Assembly: GCA_024405435.1 (NCBI GenBank)
Contig: JAKSOU010000003.1
Span: 1-64,000, forward strand
DNA: 64,000 nucleotides
Source of the DNA: Akkermansia sp.
GTDB lineage: Bacteria; Verrucomicrobiota; Verrucomicrobiia; Verrucomicrobiales; Akkermansiaceae
Reading direction: 5' to 3'
Below the pieces are notes generated by a model. It did no database searches. It had not been told where the DNA came from and saw only the letters and a list, made by a program, of their open reading frames with translations. Numbering within the stretch: position 1 is the stretch's first letter; each line of letters starts with the position of its first letter. Position numbers and translations under genes: made by a program. Below are positions 52,454 through 62,745 of this stretch, piece after piece.

Positions 52454-52464
52454 ATTGTAAATCA
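52428..52464. repeat. AT-rich dispersed repeat at the Nudix 3' end
   Basis: CAAATTGTAAATCGTCAATC then GTAAATTGTAAATC. It supplies the last codons and the TAA stop of the Nudix gene. Confidence 0.75.
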
Positions 52465-53208
52465 GGGCAATGGCAGCCCTGCCCGGGTCAAAATCTCGCG
52501 TATCTGCTCGCGGGGGCGTTCCGGCCAGAATTTGTTGGAGACGGGGCTGGCTGGGCTGGGGTGCAGGATGGTTCCCAGCACCATCTCGCGGCCGGGGAGC
52601 TCTGCGGCGGCGAGCTCAAGCTGCTTGAGGGCGTATGCGCCCACGCCCACCAGGCAGCGCGGCTGCAGCACCTCAATCAGGCGCACCAGGTGGCGGCGGC
52701 AGGCGGCGTCTATCTGGGCGGCCTGCTCCTTGGGCAGCTGGGTGGGGGTGATGTTGGCGCCGGTCTCGCTCATCCATATCAGCGGGCAGTAGTTGGCCAC
52801 GTAGGCGTGCGCAAAGAAGTTCTCCGCCGGGCCGTACATCTCCTCGAACAAGCCCCACAGGCGGCGGCCGCTCACCTCCGACCGCGGGCACGCAAACCCC
52901 TGCACCGGGCGCTTGGGGTGCGTGGCGGGCGGCGCGCCCACCGCCGCCGTGATGCCCATCCACAGCGTCACCGCCGCTATCTCGCCGAACGGCACGCCGG
53001 TCTGCGCCATACCGAACGGCCCGGGGTTCATGCCCAGGTACAGCACGTCCTTGGGCCCCCGGCCGAACTTGCGGATGTAGGCCTCGTGGCCGGCCCAGGC
53101 GTACTCCAGCGGGTTGTAGGTGAACGCCACGGGCGCGGAGAACTCCAGGGCCTCCATCTCGCGGCTCAGCTGCCGCGCCGCGGCCACCAGCTCATCCGTT
53201 GTATCCAT
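52462..53208 (-). CDS. SMUG1-type uracil-DNA glycosylase
   Basis: 248 residues. Excises uracil (and related damaged bases) from DNA. The active-site block LGMNPGPFGMAQTGVPFGE (about residue 60) matches animal SMUG1 almost exactly, including the water-activating Asn, and the second motif ILHPSPASP near 225 carries the catalytic His. Bacterial SMUG1 homologs are known in Planctomycetes and other groups, so transfer from animals need not be assumed. ATG 53208 is selected because a promoter ends 6 nt before it. Confidence 0.9.
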   Translation of the reverse strand: MDTTDELVAAARQLSREMEALEFSAPVAFTYNPLEYAWAGHEAYIRKFGRGPKDVLYLGMNPGPFGMAQTGVPFGEIAAVTLWMGITAAVGAPPATHPKRPVQGFACPRSEVSGRRLWGLFEEMYGPAENFFAHAYVANYCPLIWMSETGANITPTQLPKEQAAQIDAACRRHLVRLIEVLQPRCLVGVGAYALKQLELAAAELPGREMVLGTILHPSPASPVSNKFWPERPREQIREILTRAGLPLP

Positions 53209-53214
53209 GCAGAC

Positions 53215-53243
53215 ATCATACCACACGCGCCCGCACCTGCCAA
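53215..53243 (-). promoter_or_regulatory. Predicted promoter of the uracil-DNA glycosylase gene
   Basis: TTGGCA (53238-53243), 17-nt spacer, TATGAT (53215-53220), 6 nt to the ATG at 53208. Confidence 0.6.
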
Positions 53244-53300
53244 CAAAATATGGCACGCCGGGGCGCCGTCCGCCGGGGTTGCGGGGATACAGTGCGGGTA

Positions 53301-53346
53301 ATTAGGATTAGGGATTAGGATTAGGATTGGGATTGGGATTAAGATT
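53301..53346. repeat. Telomere-like TTAGGA/TTGGGA short repeat
   Basis: About seven hexamer-like units (ATTAGG, ATTAGGG, ATTGGG) in tandem. The end overlaps the DUF805 gene and provides its TAA stop. Related copies are at 54908-54949 and, inverted and shorter, at 63711-63727. Confidence 0.8.
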
Positions 53347-53923
53347 TGGAACGCGGGCCGTACTTGTTGTCCGCGGCGCTGGGGAGGAGGGTGAGCACGA
53401 AGAGGAGCAGGCCGAGCAGGGTGAGCGCGGGGTCGGCTATGGCGCAGCAGAGCTTGAACCACGCGGGCTGGAAGGCTTGGAAATCCTGCGCCAGGGCAAA
53501 GAGTTCCCCTATCGTCATGAAGGGGATTTGCGTGGTGTCCAGCGCGAATTCAATCTGGAATTGGAGGAAGATGCCGATTTCCAGCACGGCCATAACAGCC
53601 ACAATGCCGTATTGCACGGCTATCCACCAGCCGCTCCAGCCCACGTCGTGCAGGCGCCGCACATAGACCGCCAGCATGGGCAGCGCCGTGTAGAACACGT
53701 AGAACAGCAGCGCCAGGGAGCCCACCGCCAGCATGACCACGCCCACCGCCTGCGACACCAGGCACGCCACGCACCCCGCCACGATGATGCCGAGCGGGAT
53801 GCACCCGAACAGCAGGGCGAAGAGCATGCAGCTCCAGTACTCCGCCAGCGTGGCGCGGCCGGCCGTGCGGGCGTAGTTCTCGCGCCTGAAAGCGTTGGCG
53901 AAATGCTGCCAGATGGTGCCCAT
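53339..53923 (-). CDS. DUF805 membrane protein (no GYF domain)
   Basis: 194 residues, last gene of a four-paralog operon. It lacks the N-terminal GYF_2 domain and zinc ribbon of its three relatives and consists of the DUF805 domain only: WQHFANAFRRENYARTAGRA, YWSCMLFALLFGCIPLGIIV, VYVRRLHDVGWSGWWIAVQ (the conserved RRLHDxGxSGWW signature) and a final NKYGPRSKS. Four membrane helices. The stop codon lies in the TTAGGA repeat. Function of the family is unknown. Confidence 0.83.
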   Translation of the reverse strand: MGTIWQHFANAFRRENYARTAGRATLAEYWSCMLFALLFGCIPLGIIVAGCVACLVSQAVGVVMLAVGSLALLFYVFYTALPMLAVYVRRLHDVGWSGWWIAVQYGIVAVMAVLEIGIFLQFQIEFALDTTQIPFMTIGELFALAQDFQAFQPAWFKLCCAIADPALTLLGLLLFVLTLLPSAADNKYGPRSKS

Positions 53924-53927
53924 GGGA

Positions 53928-54902
53928 TTAGCCGAGCGGGTACTTGGCGGAGGGGCCGTACTTGTTGCTGCCGCGCTTGGAATCCAGCAGCGTCAGCACG
54001 AACAGGAGAATCCCCAGCGGGTAGACGACGATACCCAGCAGCATCCAGGGGCTCTTCACCGATTGCATCTGCGCCTCATCGTACGACTGCACGGCCTCCA
54101 GGCGCAGCTGAGCCAGCACCGCCTTGTGCAGCTCGTACGACTGGACCGGTGTCAGGTCCGACAGGGTCAAATCATCTTCCGCGGCTATTTGGGCGGCGAT
54201 TTCGTGCACGCGGGGGCTGTTGACATCGTACCGCCACACCGGGGAGGTGGCCAGGTCGTATACATTCGAGTATTGTCCGCCTGCGAAGCCGAATCCCACG
54301 CCGAACAGCATGGACGCCGCCACCCACCAGCCGCTCCAACCCACATCATGCAGGCGCCGCACCTGCACCCCCAGAAGCAGTAGCCAACTACCCAGGACCA
54401 TGAACGCGTAGGCACCCACACCCACCCATATCGCCGTGTCCAGCTCAAGTGCACTCAGGGCGACAACCATGACGATGGCCAGCAGCATGAGCAACACATA
54501 ATAGATCAAAACAGCGCTCCAATACTCCTTGCGCGTGGAGCGTCCGCGGAACACCAGGCAGTGCTTCAGCTCCAGGGCGAAGTTGCGCCACAGGCCGCCG
54601 GATTGCGCATGCAGCTCCGCGCCGCAATGCGGGCACTGCTCCGGCAGGCCCTTGCGCTCCGTGGTGAACTCCTGCCCGCAGTACGGGCAGGCGACCTCGC
54701 CCTTGATGCCGGGCACGGGCGGCAGGTCCTCGCCTGCGGCGGTGGCCTCCGTGAGGATGGTGCCGAGGGGCTTCCAGGCATCGCCGCCCACGGGAGCGAC
54801 GAGCGTTTCCATGGTGATGGTTCCCTGCTGCAGGAGGGCGCACAATTCCTCTATGGAATGGGGGCCGGTGGGGGTTTTCTTGCTGTTGAGGTAGTAATAC
54901 AT
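53928..54902 (-). CDS. GYF_2 - zinc ribbon - DUF805 membrane protein
   Basis: 324 residues. N-terminal GYF_2-type domain (MYYYLNSKKTPTGPHSIEEL, then LLQQGTITMETLVAPVGGDAW, residues 1-50), a zinc ribbon with CPYCGQ and CPHCGAEL (about 74-100), then DUF805 (VQVRRLHDVGWSGWWVAA) with four or more helices and an extra soluble insertion of about 70 residues (DLATSPVWRYDVNSPRVHEI). It ends in the usual SNKYGPSAKYPLG. A 4-nt gap to the next gene implies coupling. Confidence 0.85.
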   Translation of the reverse strand: MYYYLNSKKTPTGPHSIEELCALLQQGTITMETLVAPVGGDAWKPLGTILTEATAAGEDLPPVPGIKGEVACPYCGQEFTTERKGLPEQCPHCGAELHAQSGGLWRNFALELKHCLVFRGRSTRKEYWSAVLIYYVLLMLLAIVMVVALSALELDTAIWVGVGAYAFMVLGSWLLLLGVQVRRLHDVGWSGWWVAASMLFGVGFGFAGGQYSNVYDLATSPVWRYDVNSPRVHEIAAQIAAEDDLTLSDLTPVQSYELHKAVLAQLRLEAVQSYDEAQMQSVKSPWMLLGIVVYPLGILLFVLTLLDSKRGSNKYGPSAKYPLG

Positions 54903-54907
54903 GGGGG

Positions 54908-54949
54908 AATTAGGATTAAGATTAGGATTAGGATTAGGAATGGGAATGG
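54908..54949. repeat. TTAGGA-type repeat between two DUF805 genes
   Basis: ATTAGGATTAAGATTAGGA, ATTAGGATTAGGA then ATGGGAATGGGG. Its left part fills the intergenic gap and its right part overlaps the 3' end of the upstream paralog, providing that gene's TAA stop. Confidence 0.8.
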
Positions 54950-55668
54950 GGGGCGCGCCTGGTGGGGAGCATCATCTGGACGATGAGGGCGAGGTAGGCA
55001 ATGGCGCCGGCCGCGATGATGGCGTCGTGGTACCATTGCCCTGGCTCAACTTTCAGGATATCGCAGACACGGAGGGCGGCAAAGGACATGACGAGCACCA
55101 GCAGGAGCCACCAGCCGCTGTGGCCGCGGTCGTGCAGGCGGCGCACCGTCACCGCCAGCTTGGGCGGGATGAGCACCAGGCCGGGCAGCACGACCAACGC
55201 CATCAACGCAAACCAAGCTGTGTCGAAATGGCCGACTTTCACAACGGTCTTTCCCAGGAGAATCGCCACGAACGCCAGTCCGTACTGCGCCAGGTAGCTG
55301 TACAGGATGAAGCTCCAGAACTCGCGCCGCGTGGCGCGCCCGCGGAAATCGAACATCTGCTTGAAGGCGTACACGGCGTTTTGCCACAGGTTGTCCGTGC
55401 CGGGGTGCAGGTTCCTGCCGCAATGCGGGCACACCGCCGGTTCCTCCGCGCCCTCCAGCGCCTCATGGCAATGCGGACACGGCCCCAGCTCCACCGCGGG
55501 AACATCGTCCGCTAGGGTGAGGGAATCCAACGGCTGCCACTCGCCGCCGCCAGCCGCGGAGGCCAGCGTTTGGCCGTTAATGGAACCGTCGGCCATCATG
55601 CGGCGCATCTGCCCCGCCGTGAACGGCCCCTGCACTTCCTTCCGCTCGTTGAGATAGTAATAGCTCAT
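54934..55668 (-). CDS. GYF_2 - zinc ribbon - DUF805 membrane protein with altered C-terminus
   Basis: 244 residues. GYF_2 domain (MSYYYLNERKEVQGPFTAGQ, then MMADGSINGQTLASAAGGGEW), zinc ribbon (CPHCHEA, CPHCGRNLHPGT) and DUF805 (VTVRRLHDRGHSGWWLLLV) with four helices. Unlike its paralogs it does not end in NKYGP but in MMLPTRRAPHSHS, with the last codons and stop made by the TTAGGA repeat; the C-terminus has probably been replaced by repeat invasion. The start ATG overlaps the previous gene's stop (ATGA). Confidence 0.84.
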   Translation of the reverse strand: MSYYYLNERKEVQGPFTAGQMRRMMADGSINGQTLASAAGGGEWQPLDSLTLADDVPAVELGPCPHCHEALEGAEEPAVCPHCGRNLHPGTDNLWQNAVYAFKQMFDFRGRATRREFWSFILYSYLAQYGLAFVAILLGKTVVKVGHFDTAWFALMALVVLPGLVLIPPKLAVTVRRLHDRGHSGWWLLLVLVMSFAALRVCDILKVEPGQWYHDAIIAAGAIAYLALIVQMMLPTRRAPHSHS

Positions 55669-56477
55669 GGGAAAAGACGCGGGAAGAGGACGGAGGGGCC
55701 GTATTTGTTCGGACCGCATTGGGAGGGCATGAGCATCTGGATGAGGAGGTAGATGCCGAAGCCCGCGGCAGCGAGCACCGCCACCAGTGCGAATATGCCC
55801 AGCATCATACCGCGGTCGTGCGCGCCGAGGGTCAAGAGGATGCCGAGAATCTCCACCAGCAGGCATGCGAGCGGCGCCACCACCCACCAGCCGCTGTGCC
55901 CGGTGTCGTGCAGCCGCCGCACCGTCACCGCCAGATTGGCCAGGATCAACGACAGCTGGAACAGCAGCAGGAGAAGCCCCGCCACCATCAACACGATGTC
56001 CACGAGCAGGGATACACCCCCGTCCCCTTGCATCTTGTCAAATATTTTCTCCCCGATGTTGCCCAGAATATTCAGCGCGACCATCACCAGCGAGCTGAAC
56101 AGGTAGTAGCTCCAGAACTCGCGCCGCGTGGCGCGGCCGTGGAAATCCGTCAGCTGGTTGTAGGCGTACATGGCGTTCTCCCACAGGCTCTCCGTGCCGG
56201 GGTGCAGGTGCTTGCCGCAATGCGGGCACACCGCCGGCACCTCCGCGCCTACCAGCGTTGTCTTGCAGTGCGGACACTCCCCCAGCACCGCCGCGAGGAC
56301 TTCCGGCGCGACACCGCCCGGCAGGTGGAGCGAATCCAGCGGCTGCCACCCGCTGCCGCCCTCCTCGGAGGCCAGCGTTTGGCCGTCGAGTGTGCCGTCG
56401 GCCAACATGCGGCGCATCTGCTCCGCAGTGAACGGCCCCTGCACTTCCCTTTGTTCGTTGAGATAGTAGTATTGCAT
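55665..56477 (-). CDS. GYF_2 - zinc ribbon - DUF805 membrane protein, first of operon
   Basis: 270 residues. GYF_2 domain (MQYYYLNEQREVQGPFTAEQ, then MLADGTLDGQTLASEEGGSGW), zinc ribbon (CPHCKTT, CPHCGKHLHPGT), then DUF805 (LAVTVRRLHDTGHSGWWVVA) with four to five helices, and the C-terminal GPNKYGPSVLFPRLFP. The GYF_2 and ribbon segments are strongly similar to those of the next gene, showing recent duplication. Predicted transcription starts about 6 nt upstream of the ATG. Confidence 0.86.
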   Translation of the reverse strand: MQYYYLNEQREVQGPFTAEQMRRMLADGTLDGQTLASEEGGSGWQPLDSLHLPGGVAPEVLAAVLGECPHCKTTLVGAEVPAVCPHCGKHLHPGTESLWENAMYAYNQLTDFHGRATRREFWSYYLFSSLVMVALNILGNIGEKIFDKMQGDGGVSLLVDIVLMVAGLLLLLFQLSLILANLAVTVRRLHDTGHSGWWVVAPLACLLVEILGILLTLGAHDRGMMLGIFALVAVLAAAGFGIYLLIQMLMPSQCGPNKYGPSVLFPRLFP

Positions 56478-56490
56478 GGTTTCCTACCCT

Positions 56491-56521
56491 ATATAAGCCG
56501 CGCGAAGCGGTTTTTGTGAAA
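56491..56521 (-). promoter_or_regulatory. Promoter-like element of the DUF805 operon, shared with alpha-2-macroglobulin
   Basis: TTTCACAAA (56513-56521), 11 nt, GCGGCTTATAT (56491-56501). Same blocks and spacing as at 43476-43508. The TATATAG overlapping 56490-56496 would be the -10. Confidence 0.5.
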
Positions 56522-57168
56522 CTTTTTGCATTTTTCTTGAAAAAAATTGCCGACTGTTGATTTTAGCGCATCAGGCGCTCCCGCGCAAGCGCGAAAGTTC
56601 GACTAGAGTTGGCGTGCACATGCGTCCCAATGGTTGTATTTCTGCCACGCAAGATGCTGGTTCATATAACGATGGGGAATTTGTGAAAATCGAAGCCCCC
56701 CATTGCATGGCGGAGAAAAAACGCTCGGAGAGGTGCAAAGCCGCCGACGGCGGTAAGGCGGATTGGACAAACCGCCAAGCGGTTTGCCCCGAAGGGGGTG
56801 AAAGCGCCCGACGGCCCCGTTTAGGGCGCGCTGCGTAGCAGTGCGGTAAGGGCGATTGGACTGTACCGAAGTGTACAGCCCCCGCAGGGGGTGAGGTGCC
56901 GAGAGGCGGCACCGAATCAAGGCGCGATGGGGCGCGCCCGAATCAACGACAACTTTTTCCAGCCCCAGGCGTCAGCCTGGGGGGTGTCCCCGCGTGCGTA
57001 ACAACTAACGCAAAGCGCCCGACGGCCCCCGCAGGGGCGCACCGCTTGCGGTGCGGTAAGGGCGATTGGCCAGCCACGTATGTGGCTGCCCGCAGGGCGA
57101 ACCGCCGTGAGGCGGCGGTGAGGCAACCCCGCCTCCGCGCGGGGTGGATACACGCCAACGCCCGCCTA
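56522..57168. repeat. 647-bp intergenic block with tandem hairpin units
   Basis: Non-coding block between the DUF805 operon and carB. From 56741 to 57144 it contains at least 13 perfect or near-perfect hairpins. Two long units share AAAGCGCCCGACGGCCCC (56801, 57012) and GTGCGGTAAGGGCGATTGG (56841, 57051), each followed by a variable hairpin and a C-rich hairpin with loop GCA; a third, shorter unit begins at 56741. Stems differ between units but stay paired. The inverted 20-nt motif at 56715-56734 also occurs at 4808. Before 56700 I see no feature besides the promoter. Small open frames here look like chance products of the repeat. Confidence 0.85.
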
Positions 57169-60375
<3,207 letters not shown>

Positions 60376-60449
60376 GGTCGGTGTAAACTGGCAGATATAT
60401 GCCACAACTCCACCCAAAAAGCAAGACTTATTTGCGCGCCCGCGCGTGA

Positions 60450-60550
60450 AACGGTCCATCCGGCGGGACGCCGGATGGACCATGAAATCCCCGCGCGCAC
60501 AGCGCGCGCTCACTTTACAAATTGTAAATTGTAAATCGTAAATTGTAAAT
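60450..60550. repeat. Perfect 13-bp hairpin and AT-rich composite repeat
   Basis: GGTCCATCCGGCG (60453-60465), loop GGA, CGCCGGATGGACC (60469-60481): a perfect 13-bp stem. It is followed by GCGCGC-ACA-GCGCGC (60498-60512 region) and TTTACAAATTGTAAAT-type units to 60550. Lies between the divergently spaced carB start and the M3 peptidase stop; may terminate the latter. Confidence 0.75.
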
Positions 60551-62745
60551 CACTTCAGTCCTTCCTTCTTGAGCAGGGCGTCCGGCTGGGGGTCGCGGCC
60601 CATGAAGTCTCGGAAGACCTGGGCGGCGGGCTTGCTGTCGCCCTTGGAGAGGATGGCCTCCCTGTAGGCGGCGCCGGTGGAGGGGTTGAGCACGCCCTCG
60701 TTGGCGAAGCGGGAGAAGGCGTCCGCGGCCAGCACTTCCGCCCACTTGTAGGAGTAGTATCCGGCGGCGTACCCGCCGGTGATGCAGTGGGTGAGGTTGC
60801 GCATGATGGAGCGCGAGGGCACGGTGGCGGGCATGCGCCACGCACCCACCAGGGCGTTGGATGCCTCGTCCAGGTCGCGCCCCTTGAAGAGCTTGTCGTA
60901 GTTGGTATGCATCTCCAAATCCAGCTTGGCGAGGGCGAGCTGGCTCATCTCATCGGTGGCGGGCATGTAGAAGCGGCTGTCGTTGAGCTTCTTCACCATC
61001 TCTGCGGGCATGGGCTCGCCGGTCTTGTAGTGCTTGGCGTAGGTTGCCAGGGCCTCCGGCTCCCAGGTCCAGTTCTCGTTGAGCTGGCTGGGCAGCTCCA
61101 CGAAATCCCAAGCCACGCTGGAGCCTGCGTGCGCCAGCAGCTCGGTGTCGGTGAGCATGTTGTGCATCATGTGCCCGAACTCGTGGAAGATGGTCTCCAC
61201 GTCATAGTGGGAGTAGAGGGCGGGCATGTCGTCCGTGGGGGCGGTGAGGTTGCCGCAGAGGGCTGCCAGGTGGGGGCGGTGGGGCTTGCCGTTGGCGGCG
61301 GGCTCGCCGAATGCCAGGGGCATCACCCAGGCGCCGGCGCGCTTGCTGGGGCGCGGGTAGAGGTCCATGTAGAACGAGCCGAGGTGGGCGCCGGTCTTGT
61401 TGTCGCGCACCTCGAAGAGGCGCACGCCGGGGTACCAGACCTCCGCCTTTCCTGCGGGCAGGTCCTCGCCGGGCTTGAGGCAGACGGTGGGCACCTCCTT
61501 GAAGTTGATGTCGTACAGCGTGGAGGCGAGGTTGAACATGCCTTGGCGCACCTGTTCCGCCTCAAAGTAGGGGCGCACGGAGTCGGGGTCGAACGAGTAG
61601 CGCTGCTTTTTGAACTGGTAGGCGTAGTAGGGGATGTCCCACGGGTCCATCTTCTCCACCCTCTTGCCGGTCTCCTTGGCGTAGAAGTCCAGCAACTCTT
61701 GGCATTCCTTCTCGAATGCGGGCAGCACCTGCGCCGCCAGGTCGTCCACAAAGGCCATGGCCTTGTCGCCGCTCTCCACCATGCGGTGAACAGTGGTGAG
61801 GTCCGCGTAGGTCTTGAAGCCGAGCATCTCCGCGAGCTCCTTGCGCAGCTGCATCACCTCCGCCACAATCGCGGTGGTGTCGTACTCCCCGGTGCCCACG
61901 CTCTGGCGGCCCTCCCAGCACGCCTTGCGGGTGGCGGGCACGGTGCAGTTGCGCAGCACCTCGATGACGCTGTCCACATCCAGGGTGACGAGCCACTGGG
62001 GGGCCTCCTTGGTGCCGTGGCCCTTCTCCAGCGCGGCGGCGGCGGCCTTGGCCAGCCAGGCGTCGCTCATACCTGCCAGCTGCGCCTTGTCGGTCACCAC
62101 CAGCTGCCACGCGTTGGTGGAATCCAGCACCTTCTTGCCGAACTCGTGCGTGAGGGTGCCCAGGCGCTCCATGATTTGGGCCTTGCGTGCCTTCTGCTCG
62201 GGCGAGAGGTCGGCGCCGCTCTCGCGGAAGGAATCCACCACCTGCTGCACGTAGCGCTGCTTGGCGGGGGAGAGGGTTTTCACCCAATCCTGCGCGGCGG
62301 CGTTCTTGATGACGGCCCAGAGCTTCTCATTGGCGACGATGGAGGCGGAGAAGGCGGAGAGCTCCGGGATGAGCTGCTCCTGCACCTCGCGGATTTCCGG
62401 GGAGTCCAGGTTGTTCCCCAGCACGCTGAGCATGCTGTCCGCGTAGTCCATGTCGAGGCCTATCTCCTGGTAGGCCCCGAACACGCTTTCAAAGGTGGCC
62501 TTGTCCGGCGTGACAGCGCAAAGGGCGTCGATGTTCTGCTGCGCGCGCTGCAGGCCGTAGCGCATGTCCGCCAGCACCTGCTTGGGTGTGAGTTTGGACC
62601 AGCGCGGGTACTCGTTCCAGGCGCAGGCGGGGTGTTCCGCCGCCACGGGCGTGGGGGACATGGGAGCCGCGCTCTCCTGCGCGGCGAGCGGCGCGCCCAG
62701 GGCAAGCCCGAGCGCCAGCGTCAGCATGATGTCTTTGGTCGTCAT
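60550..62745 (-). CDS. Secreted M3-family zinc oligopeptidase (Dcp/PrlC-like)
   Basis: 731 residues. Signal peptide (MTTKDIMLTLALGLALGAPL, cleavage near AAQ), so probably periplasmic, unlike cytoplasmic PrlC. The thimet-oligopeptidase active site is VETIFHEFGHMMHNMLTD (HEXXH, about residue 525), and the distal zinc-ligand Glu region follows in family order (WAEVLAADAFSRF near the end matches M3A peptidases). It should degrade short peptides, possibly complementing the alpha-2-macroglobulin in periplasmic protein turnover (speculative). Start could also be the ATG at 62727 (MLTLALG). Confidence 0.92.
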   Translation of the reverse strand: MTTKDIMLTLALGLALGAPLAAQESAAPMSPTPVAAEHPACAWNEYPRWSKLTPKQVLADMRYGLQRAQQNIDALCAVTPDKATFESVFGAYQEIGLDMDYADSMLSVLGNNLDSPEIREVQEQLIPELSAFSASIVANEKLWAVIKNAAAQDWVKTLSPAKQRYVQQVVDSFRESGADLSPEQKARKAQIMERLGTLTHEFGKKVLDSTNAWQLVVTDKAQLAGMSDAWLAKAAAAALEKGHGTKEAPQWLVTLDVDSVIEVLRNCTVPATRKACWEGRQSVGTGEYDTTAIVAEVMQLRKELAEMLGFKTYADLTTVHRMVESGDKAMAFVDDLAAQVLPAFEKECQELLDFYAKETGKRVEKMDPWDIPYYAYQFKKQRYSFDPDSVRPYFEAEQVRQGMFNLASTLYDINFKEVPTVCLKPGEDLPAGKAEVWYPGVRLFEVRDNKTGAHLGSFYMDLYPRPSKRAGAWVMPLAFGEPAANGKPHRPHLAALCGNLTAPTDDMPALYSHYDVETIFHEFGHMMHNMLTDTELLAHAGSSVAWDFVELPSQLNENWTWEPEALATYAKHYKTGEPMPAEMVKKLNDSRFYMPATDEMSQLALAKLDLEMHTNYDKLFKGRDLDEASNALVGAWRMPATVPSRSIMRNLTHCITGGYAAGYYSYKWAEVLAADAFSRFANEGVLNPSTGAAYREAILSKGDSKPAAQVFRDFMGRDPQPDALLKKEGLK

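Follow-up and report, generated by a model that had tools for sequence, protein, structure and literature searches.

Small gene-free mobile DNA elements with variable stems and conserved pairing, nested in a larger palindromic repeat next to carB in Akkermansia

The window analysed here is a stretch of 64,000 nucleotides from an Akkermansia sp. genome (GenBank assembly GCA_024405435.1, contig JAKSOU010000003.1, positions 1 to 64,000 of the forward strand). Between a GYF/DUF805 gene and carB, it carries a dispersed repeat that spans 56697-57161 (Table 1). The repeat consists of parts of a larger palindromic host element, named the A element, and of three small units, named B-units, which run antisense to both flanking genes. 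The left-end sequence of the A element recurs at other loci with 80-98% identity, and its middle block is also found at loci L082, L085, L095, L102, L103, and L107. At 52462-56477, several minus-strand neighbours seem to form a tandem family encoding GYF_2 + DUF805 membrane proteins (the Pfam assignment concerns the last one). In G030 and G001, two close relatives with ~95% DNA identity, the genes on either side of the repeat (56478-57168) are not adjacent, which places the repeat at a rearrangement point; gene order at carB differs in both, and there is consequently no usable empty site for the whole A element.

Table 1. Features of the repeat and of its two neighbouring genes (positions in the window)
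Feature	Position	Strand	Basis
GYF_2 + DUF805 protein, neighbouring gene	55665..56477	-	Pfam
A element, left end CCATTGCATGGCGGAGAAAAAACGCTCGGAGAGGTGCAA	56697..56738	+	dispersed-repeat extent
B-unit 1, left part, up to GGGGGTGAA	56739..56802	+	left-end model R1 (56739-56768), 35.1 bits
B-unit 2, 118 bp, nested in unit 1 after GTGAA	56803..56920	+	R1 (56803-56861), 79.1 bits
B-unit 2, left end	56803..56861	+	covariation, ssDNA folding
B-unit 2, right end: hairpin GGTGCCGAGAGGCGGCACC, then GAATCAA	56895..56920	+	ssDNA folding, empty-site comparison
B-unit 1, right part: hairpin GGCGCGATGGGGCGCGCC and CGAATCAA end	56921..56946	+	joined to left part in uninterrupted relatives
A element, middle: hairpin CCCCAGGC/GCCTGGGG, GGGGTGTCCCC arm	56947..57013	+	shared block elsewhere
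B-unit 3, 113 bp, inserted after CTAACGCAA, terminus GGTGAGGCAA	57014..57126	+	R1 (57014-57071), 84.5 bits
A element, right part: hairpin CCCCGCCTCCGCGCGGGG and arm	57127..57161	+	repeat extent, empty-site comparison
carB, carbamoyl-phosphate synthase large chain, neighbouring gene	57169..60513	-	Pfam

Unit 1 starts directly after GTGCAA (host GCAA), and its left part holds a short-form trunk (CCGCC/GGCGG), the hairpin CAAACCGC/GCGGTTTG, and a CCCC/GGGG hairpin. In unit 2, the trunk CGCCC/GGGCG surrounds two inner hairpins, with a GAC..GTAA junction and an ATTGG foot, and the unit terminates in GGCACC-GAATCAA. Relatives that lack unit 2 carry an unbroken GGGGGTGAGGGCGCGAT; unit 1 is thus split by unit 2, and the apparent tandem arrangement is in fact nesting. 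Empty sites for unit 2 were found at L086 (202-273, 93%) as well as at L085 and L084, and one for unit 3 at L085 (1824-1896, 89%). As single-stranded DNA, the units fold better than shuffled sequences do, with z-scores of -4.8 (unit 2), -2.8 (unit 3), and -2.8 (unit 1). The left-end structure model found no significant match in the 64-kb window beyond these three copies.

The locus had been singled out by an original prediction, made from the sequence alone, of tandem multi-hairpin units with covarying stems. All the hairpins and shared linkers it quoted lie where it placed them, and the layout it drew from them has to be revised. The linkers it took to be linear pair with each other, CGCCC with GGGCG, closing the unit; the edges it set at 56801-56891 and 57012-57098 move to 56803-56920 and 57014-57126; its shorter third unit is the left part of the element split by unit 2, and tandem repetition gives way to nested insertion. 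Of the hairpins it assigned to the space between units, the first (56895-56913) belongs to the right end of unit 2, while the second (56963-56982) is indeed present and forms part of the larger host repeat.

The B-unit is a discrete, gene-free mobile DNA element of 84-120 bp with exact ends, as follows from the uninterrupted versions of its insertion sites that are described below. It begins directly 3' of a host S-A-A and itself ends in ..TCAA or ..GCAA. After the host triplet come, in order, AGCGCCC (variable trunk), GACGG, two optional hairpins, GTAA, and the other arm of the trunk; the 3' part consists of ATTGG, hairpin C, a short CCCC/GGGG hairpin, TGA, a right-end hairpin, and a terminal sequence (variants GAATCAA, GAAGCAA, GAGTCAA, and GTGAGGCAA). 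The left end is therefore a trunk stem enclosing two hairpins and the right end a hairpin just before the terminal tetranucleotide. Since the left end AGCGCCCGAC and the right end GAATCAA are not complementary, terminal inverted repeats are lacking, and the unit is too short to encode a transposase. Among 138 copies selected by their trunk, the host base at -1 is A in 129, that at -2 is A in 131, and that at -3 is C or G in 133, and the foot of the trunk is TT, likewise conserved; these host bases can therefore pair with the element across the junction. Triloops are of the GNA type in 88 of 112 cases, a loop that is very stable in DNA.

To find the sites as they were before insertion, the sequences on either side of each copy were fused and used as queries. 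Uninterrupted sites were recovered for ~22 distinct insertions, two of them at 100% over 80 nt. The unit at L090 lies in CCACAGGTGTCAA^CCTGTGGGG, a site that is unbroken at L091 and L070 (100% over 80 nt); the unit at L092 has its empty site at L104 (100%) and that at L086 at L080 (96%). The unit at L096 has an empty counterpart in G000:C62 (97%, with small differences near the junction). Outside the repeat family, an insertion in G001:C4 can be compared with the empty G083:C77, at 84% identity apart from 2 nt at the junction. At most AA is shared at the empty sites and the base at -3 (C or G) is not duplicated; exchange at a 2-bp AA core is indistinguishable from insertion without duplication. 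Head-to-tail arrays, with a spacing of 115 bases in G024 and 112 bases in G091, are what one would expect if the terminal CAA can in turn serve as a target; simple tandem duplication is ruled out by the exact nested junctions. Where B-units are identical, they nearly always sit at homologous host sites, from which it follows that part of the copy number reflects the spread of larger composites and that recent independent jumps are not demonstrated.

Two further kinds of sequence were encountered around B-units. Runs of TTTACGATT / CATCGTACA repeats are found between genes throughout Akkermansia genomes (in the window at 60491-60551; also at L226, L231, L242, and L253) and are frequent B-unit targets (..TTTACAA| and ..CGTACAA|). 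A conserved, structured-looking multi-copy sequence, GUGAAAGUCC...GAAGAACAA^CUGCGGGGAGG..., at L273 (G001:C4:49000-50200) and L271 (G083:C77) resembles a group II intron by eye and has no Rfam match; it is occupied by a B-unit in G001 but not in G083.

Although the stems of the B-units change in sequence between copies, their pairing is kept. Across 94 distinct left ends, taken from all loci by a selection blind to the trunk and counted without regard to shared ancestry, 443 of 470 trunk pairs (94%) are Watson-Crick, 8 are G-T, and 19 are other combinations, against a mean of 328 (70%) and a maximum of 350 Watson-Crick pairs in 1000 trials with shuffled partners. The trunks come in 13 or more different versions that pair perfectly or nearly so, about a dozen of them perfectly. 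In a set of 20 aligned left ends, 97.2% of cells are paired, a value reached in 0 of 500 shuffles and falling to 33-47% when partners are slid. The next pair outward of the trunk (n=94) is G.A in 50, A.G in 23, G-C in 8, and A-T in 7; the exchange of G.A for A.G cannot result from palindrome repair and hence argues for selection on shape. The covariation noted in the original prediction is accordingly real, and its proposal of selection on structure is backed by the trunks, by this swap, and by the presence of copies in 28 of 76 genomes of the genus. What it called possibly a structured RNA or DNA element is mobile DNA; a structured RNA is not supported and was rejected on the grounds of the transposon-like, exact empty-site junctions, the antisense position relative to the neighbours, and the lack of a promoter, of a better-than-chance terminator, and of an Rfam match (in Rfam 15 the sole match was CRISPR-DR20, at 20 bits and E 0.67, far under the cut-off).

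The further copies that the prediction called for were found by searching with the structure model: B-units are present in 28 of 76 Akkermansia genomes. Copy numbers are highest in G090 (64), G024 (57), G025 (50), G095 (44), G091 (40), and G093 (39). Searched with a query of 410 bases, the genome of the window gave 68 partial matches; 20 of 59 relatives also matched, with a single one outside the genus. The sequence taken for closer comparison covered the stretches around repeat copies. Spread on viruses was rejected as well, for 31 viral contigs with the core word gave no convincing model match (best 20.4 bits, E 0.007). A literature search found no report of these repeats in Akkermansia.

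The A elements (e.g., L104 856-1528 and L078 1052-1676) are palindromes of 500-700 bp whose half-linkers pair as a trunk and whose hairpins branch off both sides; in autonomous copies, a Y1 transposase gene takes the centre place. Beside the A element at L104, the right flank (about 1590-1800) carries tandem ~32-base repeats of the type CCAAATTCGAGGGAGATTT.... The genome of the window has three IS200-like Y1 (RAYT/TIRYT) genes, each inside A-element arms, and the same arrangement is seen at five RAYT loci of named Akkermansia records (L135-L139). Their proteins have intact DHIH and Y-x-x-x-Q motifs. With a Y1 gene between long inverted repeats of a dispersed family (L069, L070, L071, L072, and L135-L139), the A elements match published TIRtrons (PMC3733652).

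A RAYT relative is found in 4 of 17 genomes with at least three B-units and in 26 of 59 genomes with fewer, and Y1_Tnp scores above the Pfam cut-off in 4 of 16 B-rich genomes. The high-copy genomes G090, G024, G025, G095, G091, and G093 gave neither a RAYT relative nor any Y1_Tnp match. No transposase lies between B-unit ends among the transposase genes inspected, and a B-unit directly follows a RAYT element only in G000:C68 and G001:C8. Resident RAYT/TIRYT genes are candidate movers only in G000, G001, G030, and G083. In most B-rich genomes no Y1 gene was detected, which leaves the mobilising enzyme unproven; it may have been lost, may be absent from the draft assemblies, or may belong to another class.

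Our best reading is that the B-units are a new PATE/REP-like family of non-autonomous single-stranded DNA elements, recognised mainly by shape and arranged in nested or tandem arrays. The repeat in the window is a stack of such small units, inserted in each other and in a larger palindrome and probably moved as folded single-stranded DNA by a Y1/HUH enzyme. A transposase of this IS200-like type would read the end structures by shape, and the host SAA would pair with the TT(G) foot inside the left end, much like the target-guide pairing in IS608. The strand could then be excised and inserted through cuts made behind SAA and behind TCAA. An enzyme that reads shape would leave the stems free to drift as long as they stay paired, and if the terminal CAA and inner GAA/CAA spots serve as targets, nested and head-to-tail arrays would result.

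A narrower form of this proposal, in which the resident RAYT/TIRYT proteins are the specific movers and the high-copy genomes have either lost the genes or have assemblies that lack them, is conceivable yet doubtful. The RAYTs are intact, and a B-unit stands right after a RAYT element at the two contigs named above; on the other hand, RAYT genes are bracketed by A-element arms rather than B-unit ends, a B-unit is found close to only one of the five RAYT loci of named records, and RAYT relatives are found in many genomes poor in B-units. We think it unlikely that the same element is moved in trans by another enzyme class, e.g., a recombinase of the IS110 or IS607 type acting on a two-base AA core. 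Such an enzyme would suit the junctions and the many high-copy genomes without a Y1 gene, and PF02371 (IS110-type) genes do occur in G090, G093, G024, and G095. These are, however, just 4 of 16 B-rich genomes, which is why IS110 was rejected as the mover, and the search found none in G025 (50 copies), G091, G000, G001, G030, and G083; moreover, the placement of hairpins immediately within the two cleavage points, together with host-foot pairing, is HUH anatomy. Distinctly unlikely, in our view, is the more far-reaching idea that these are ultra-small elements read by three-dimensional DNA shape and not by sequence, host base pairs across the junction included, whose mover in many Akkermansia is neither a known Y1 nor an IS110 enzyme.

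Two other explanations concern the conserved pairing rather than the enzyme. The units might be host-adapted structures (mRNA 3' ends or protein-binding sites), mobile in the past and now selected for a cellular function. Diverged copies that keep pairing, identical copies at mostly homologous host sites, and the intergenic position adjoining carB would all fit, yet the idea is very improbable given that the window units are antisense to both neighbours, that terminators do not exceed chance, and that the conserved pairing takes in host bases outside the element. In addition, 7 units lie opposite and 2 in the sense direction between same-direction gene pairs, a rough count owing to spurious long ORFs in a GC-rich genome. 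Alternatively, template switching at replication could have made imperfect hairpins into perfect palindromes, producing covariation without selection. One B-unit hairpin has 41 variants whose stems differ almost wholesale between copies, as this process would produce; the G.A/A.G swap of the outer pair is nevertheless not an outcome of palindrome repair and the trunk is broken up by two hairpins, making this origin highly improbable.

The B-units constitute a natural collection in which a single mobile DNA structure is represented by ~90 sequence variants, with stems free to vary and pairing kept, and such a set can show what a single-stranded DNA transposase reads. They also account for much of the intergenic repeat clutter and many of the assembly breaks in these Akkermansia genomes.

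Among known systems, REP/BIME/REPIN sequences with their RAYTs share with our repeats the many dispersed palindromes and genomes that also hold IS200-like tyrosine transposase genes (PMC3116915, PMC3733652). A match to a REP/BIME-type element was named in the original prediction as a possible refutation, and the units are mobile DNA of the REP/PATE kind. They differ from REPs and REPINs in their length of 84-120 bp, against 20-40 bp (PMC3116915, PMC3733652), in having as many as five hairpins, in lacking a GTAG or CGTC tag at the hairpin foot (18 aligned units), in not forming inverted pairs, and apparently in not bracketing the transposase: A arms flank the RAYT, and a B-unit follows it in G000 and G001 only. 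The A elements resemble TIRtrons, where a TIRYT (Y1) gene lies between long, partly self-complementary inverted repeats of a dispersed family (PMC3733652), and differ from them as long multi-hairpin palindromes that are targets for B-units. MITEs have terminal inverted repeats plus target duplication, a combination not seen in B-units.

IS608 inserts 3' of a target that remains at its left side, and on the right it is cleaved at TCAA (PMC5934647). B-units likewise retain a 5' target and show a TCAA right site, subterminal hairpins, and apparent target pairing by the left end (PMC5934647), whereas their target is SAA instead of TTAC, their guide lies at the 3' foot of the trunk and not 5' of the hairpin, and they have no internal transposase. 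Closest are the PATEs (palindrome-associated transposable elements) of Haloquadratum, for which insertions were seen even though the IS200-type genes are disrupted (PMC3119063). Common to both are the lack of terminal inverted repeats, palindromes near both ends, a length too short for a transposase, a short 5' target motif, heavy nesting, and the difficulty of assigning their mobility, as tnpA genes are missing or broken (PMC3119063). PATEs leave no target duplication (PMC3119063), and at the empty sites of B-units at most AA is shared. The question raised by PATEs, namely what moves transposase-free elements where tnpA is absent, is restated here in a gut genus. Apart from their host, Akkermansia, B-units differ from PATEs in their branched left-end trunk with two inner hairpins, in stems that vary between copies while pairing is kept, and in that no IS605-type parent with B-unit ends was found around any transposase gene inspected. 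Sharing most of the defining PATE traits and apparently working like IS200/IS605 ends, B-units would represent a new variant rather than proven IS200/IS605 derivatives; because a parent transposon with such ends is missing and Y1 genes are absent from most of the rich genomes, we place them beside the PATEs.
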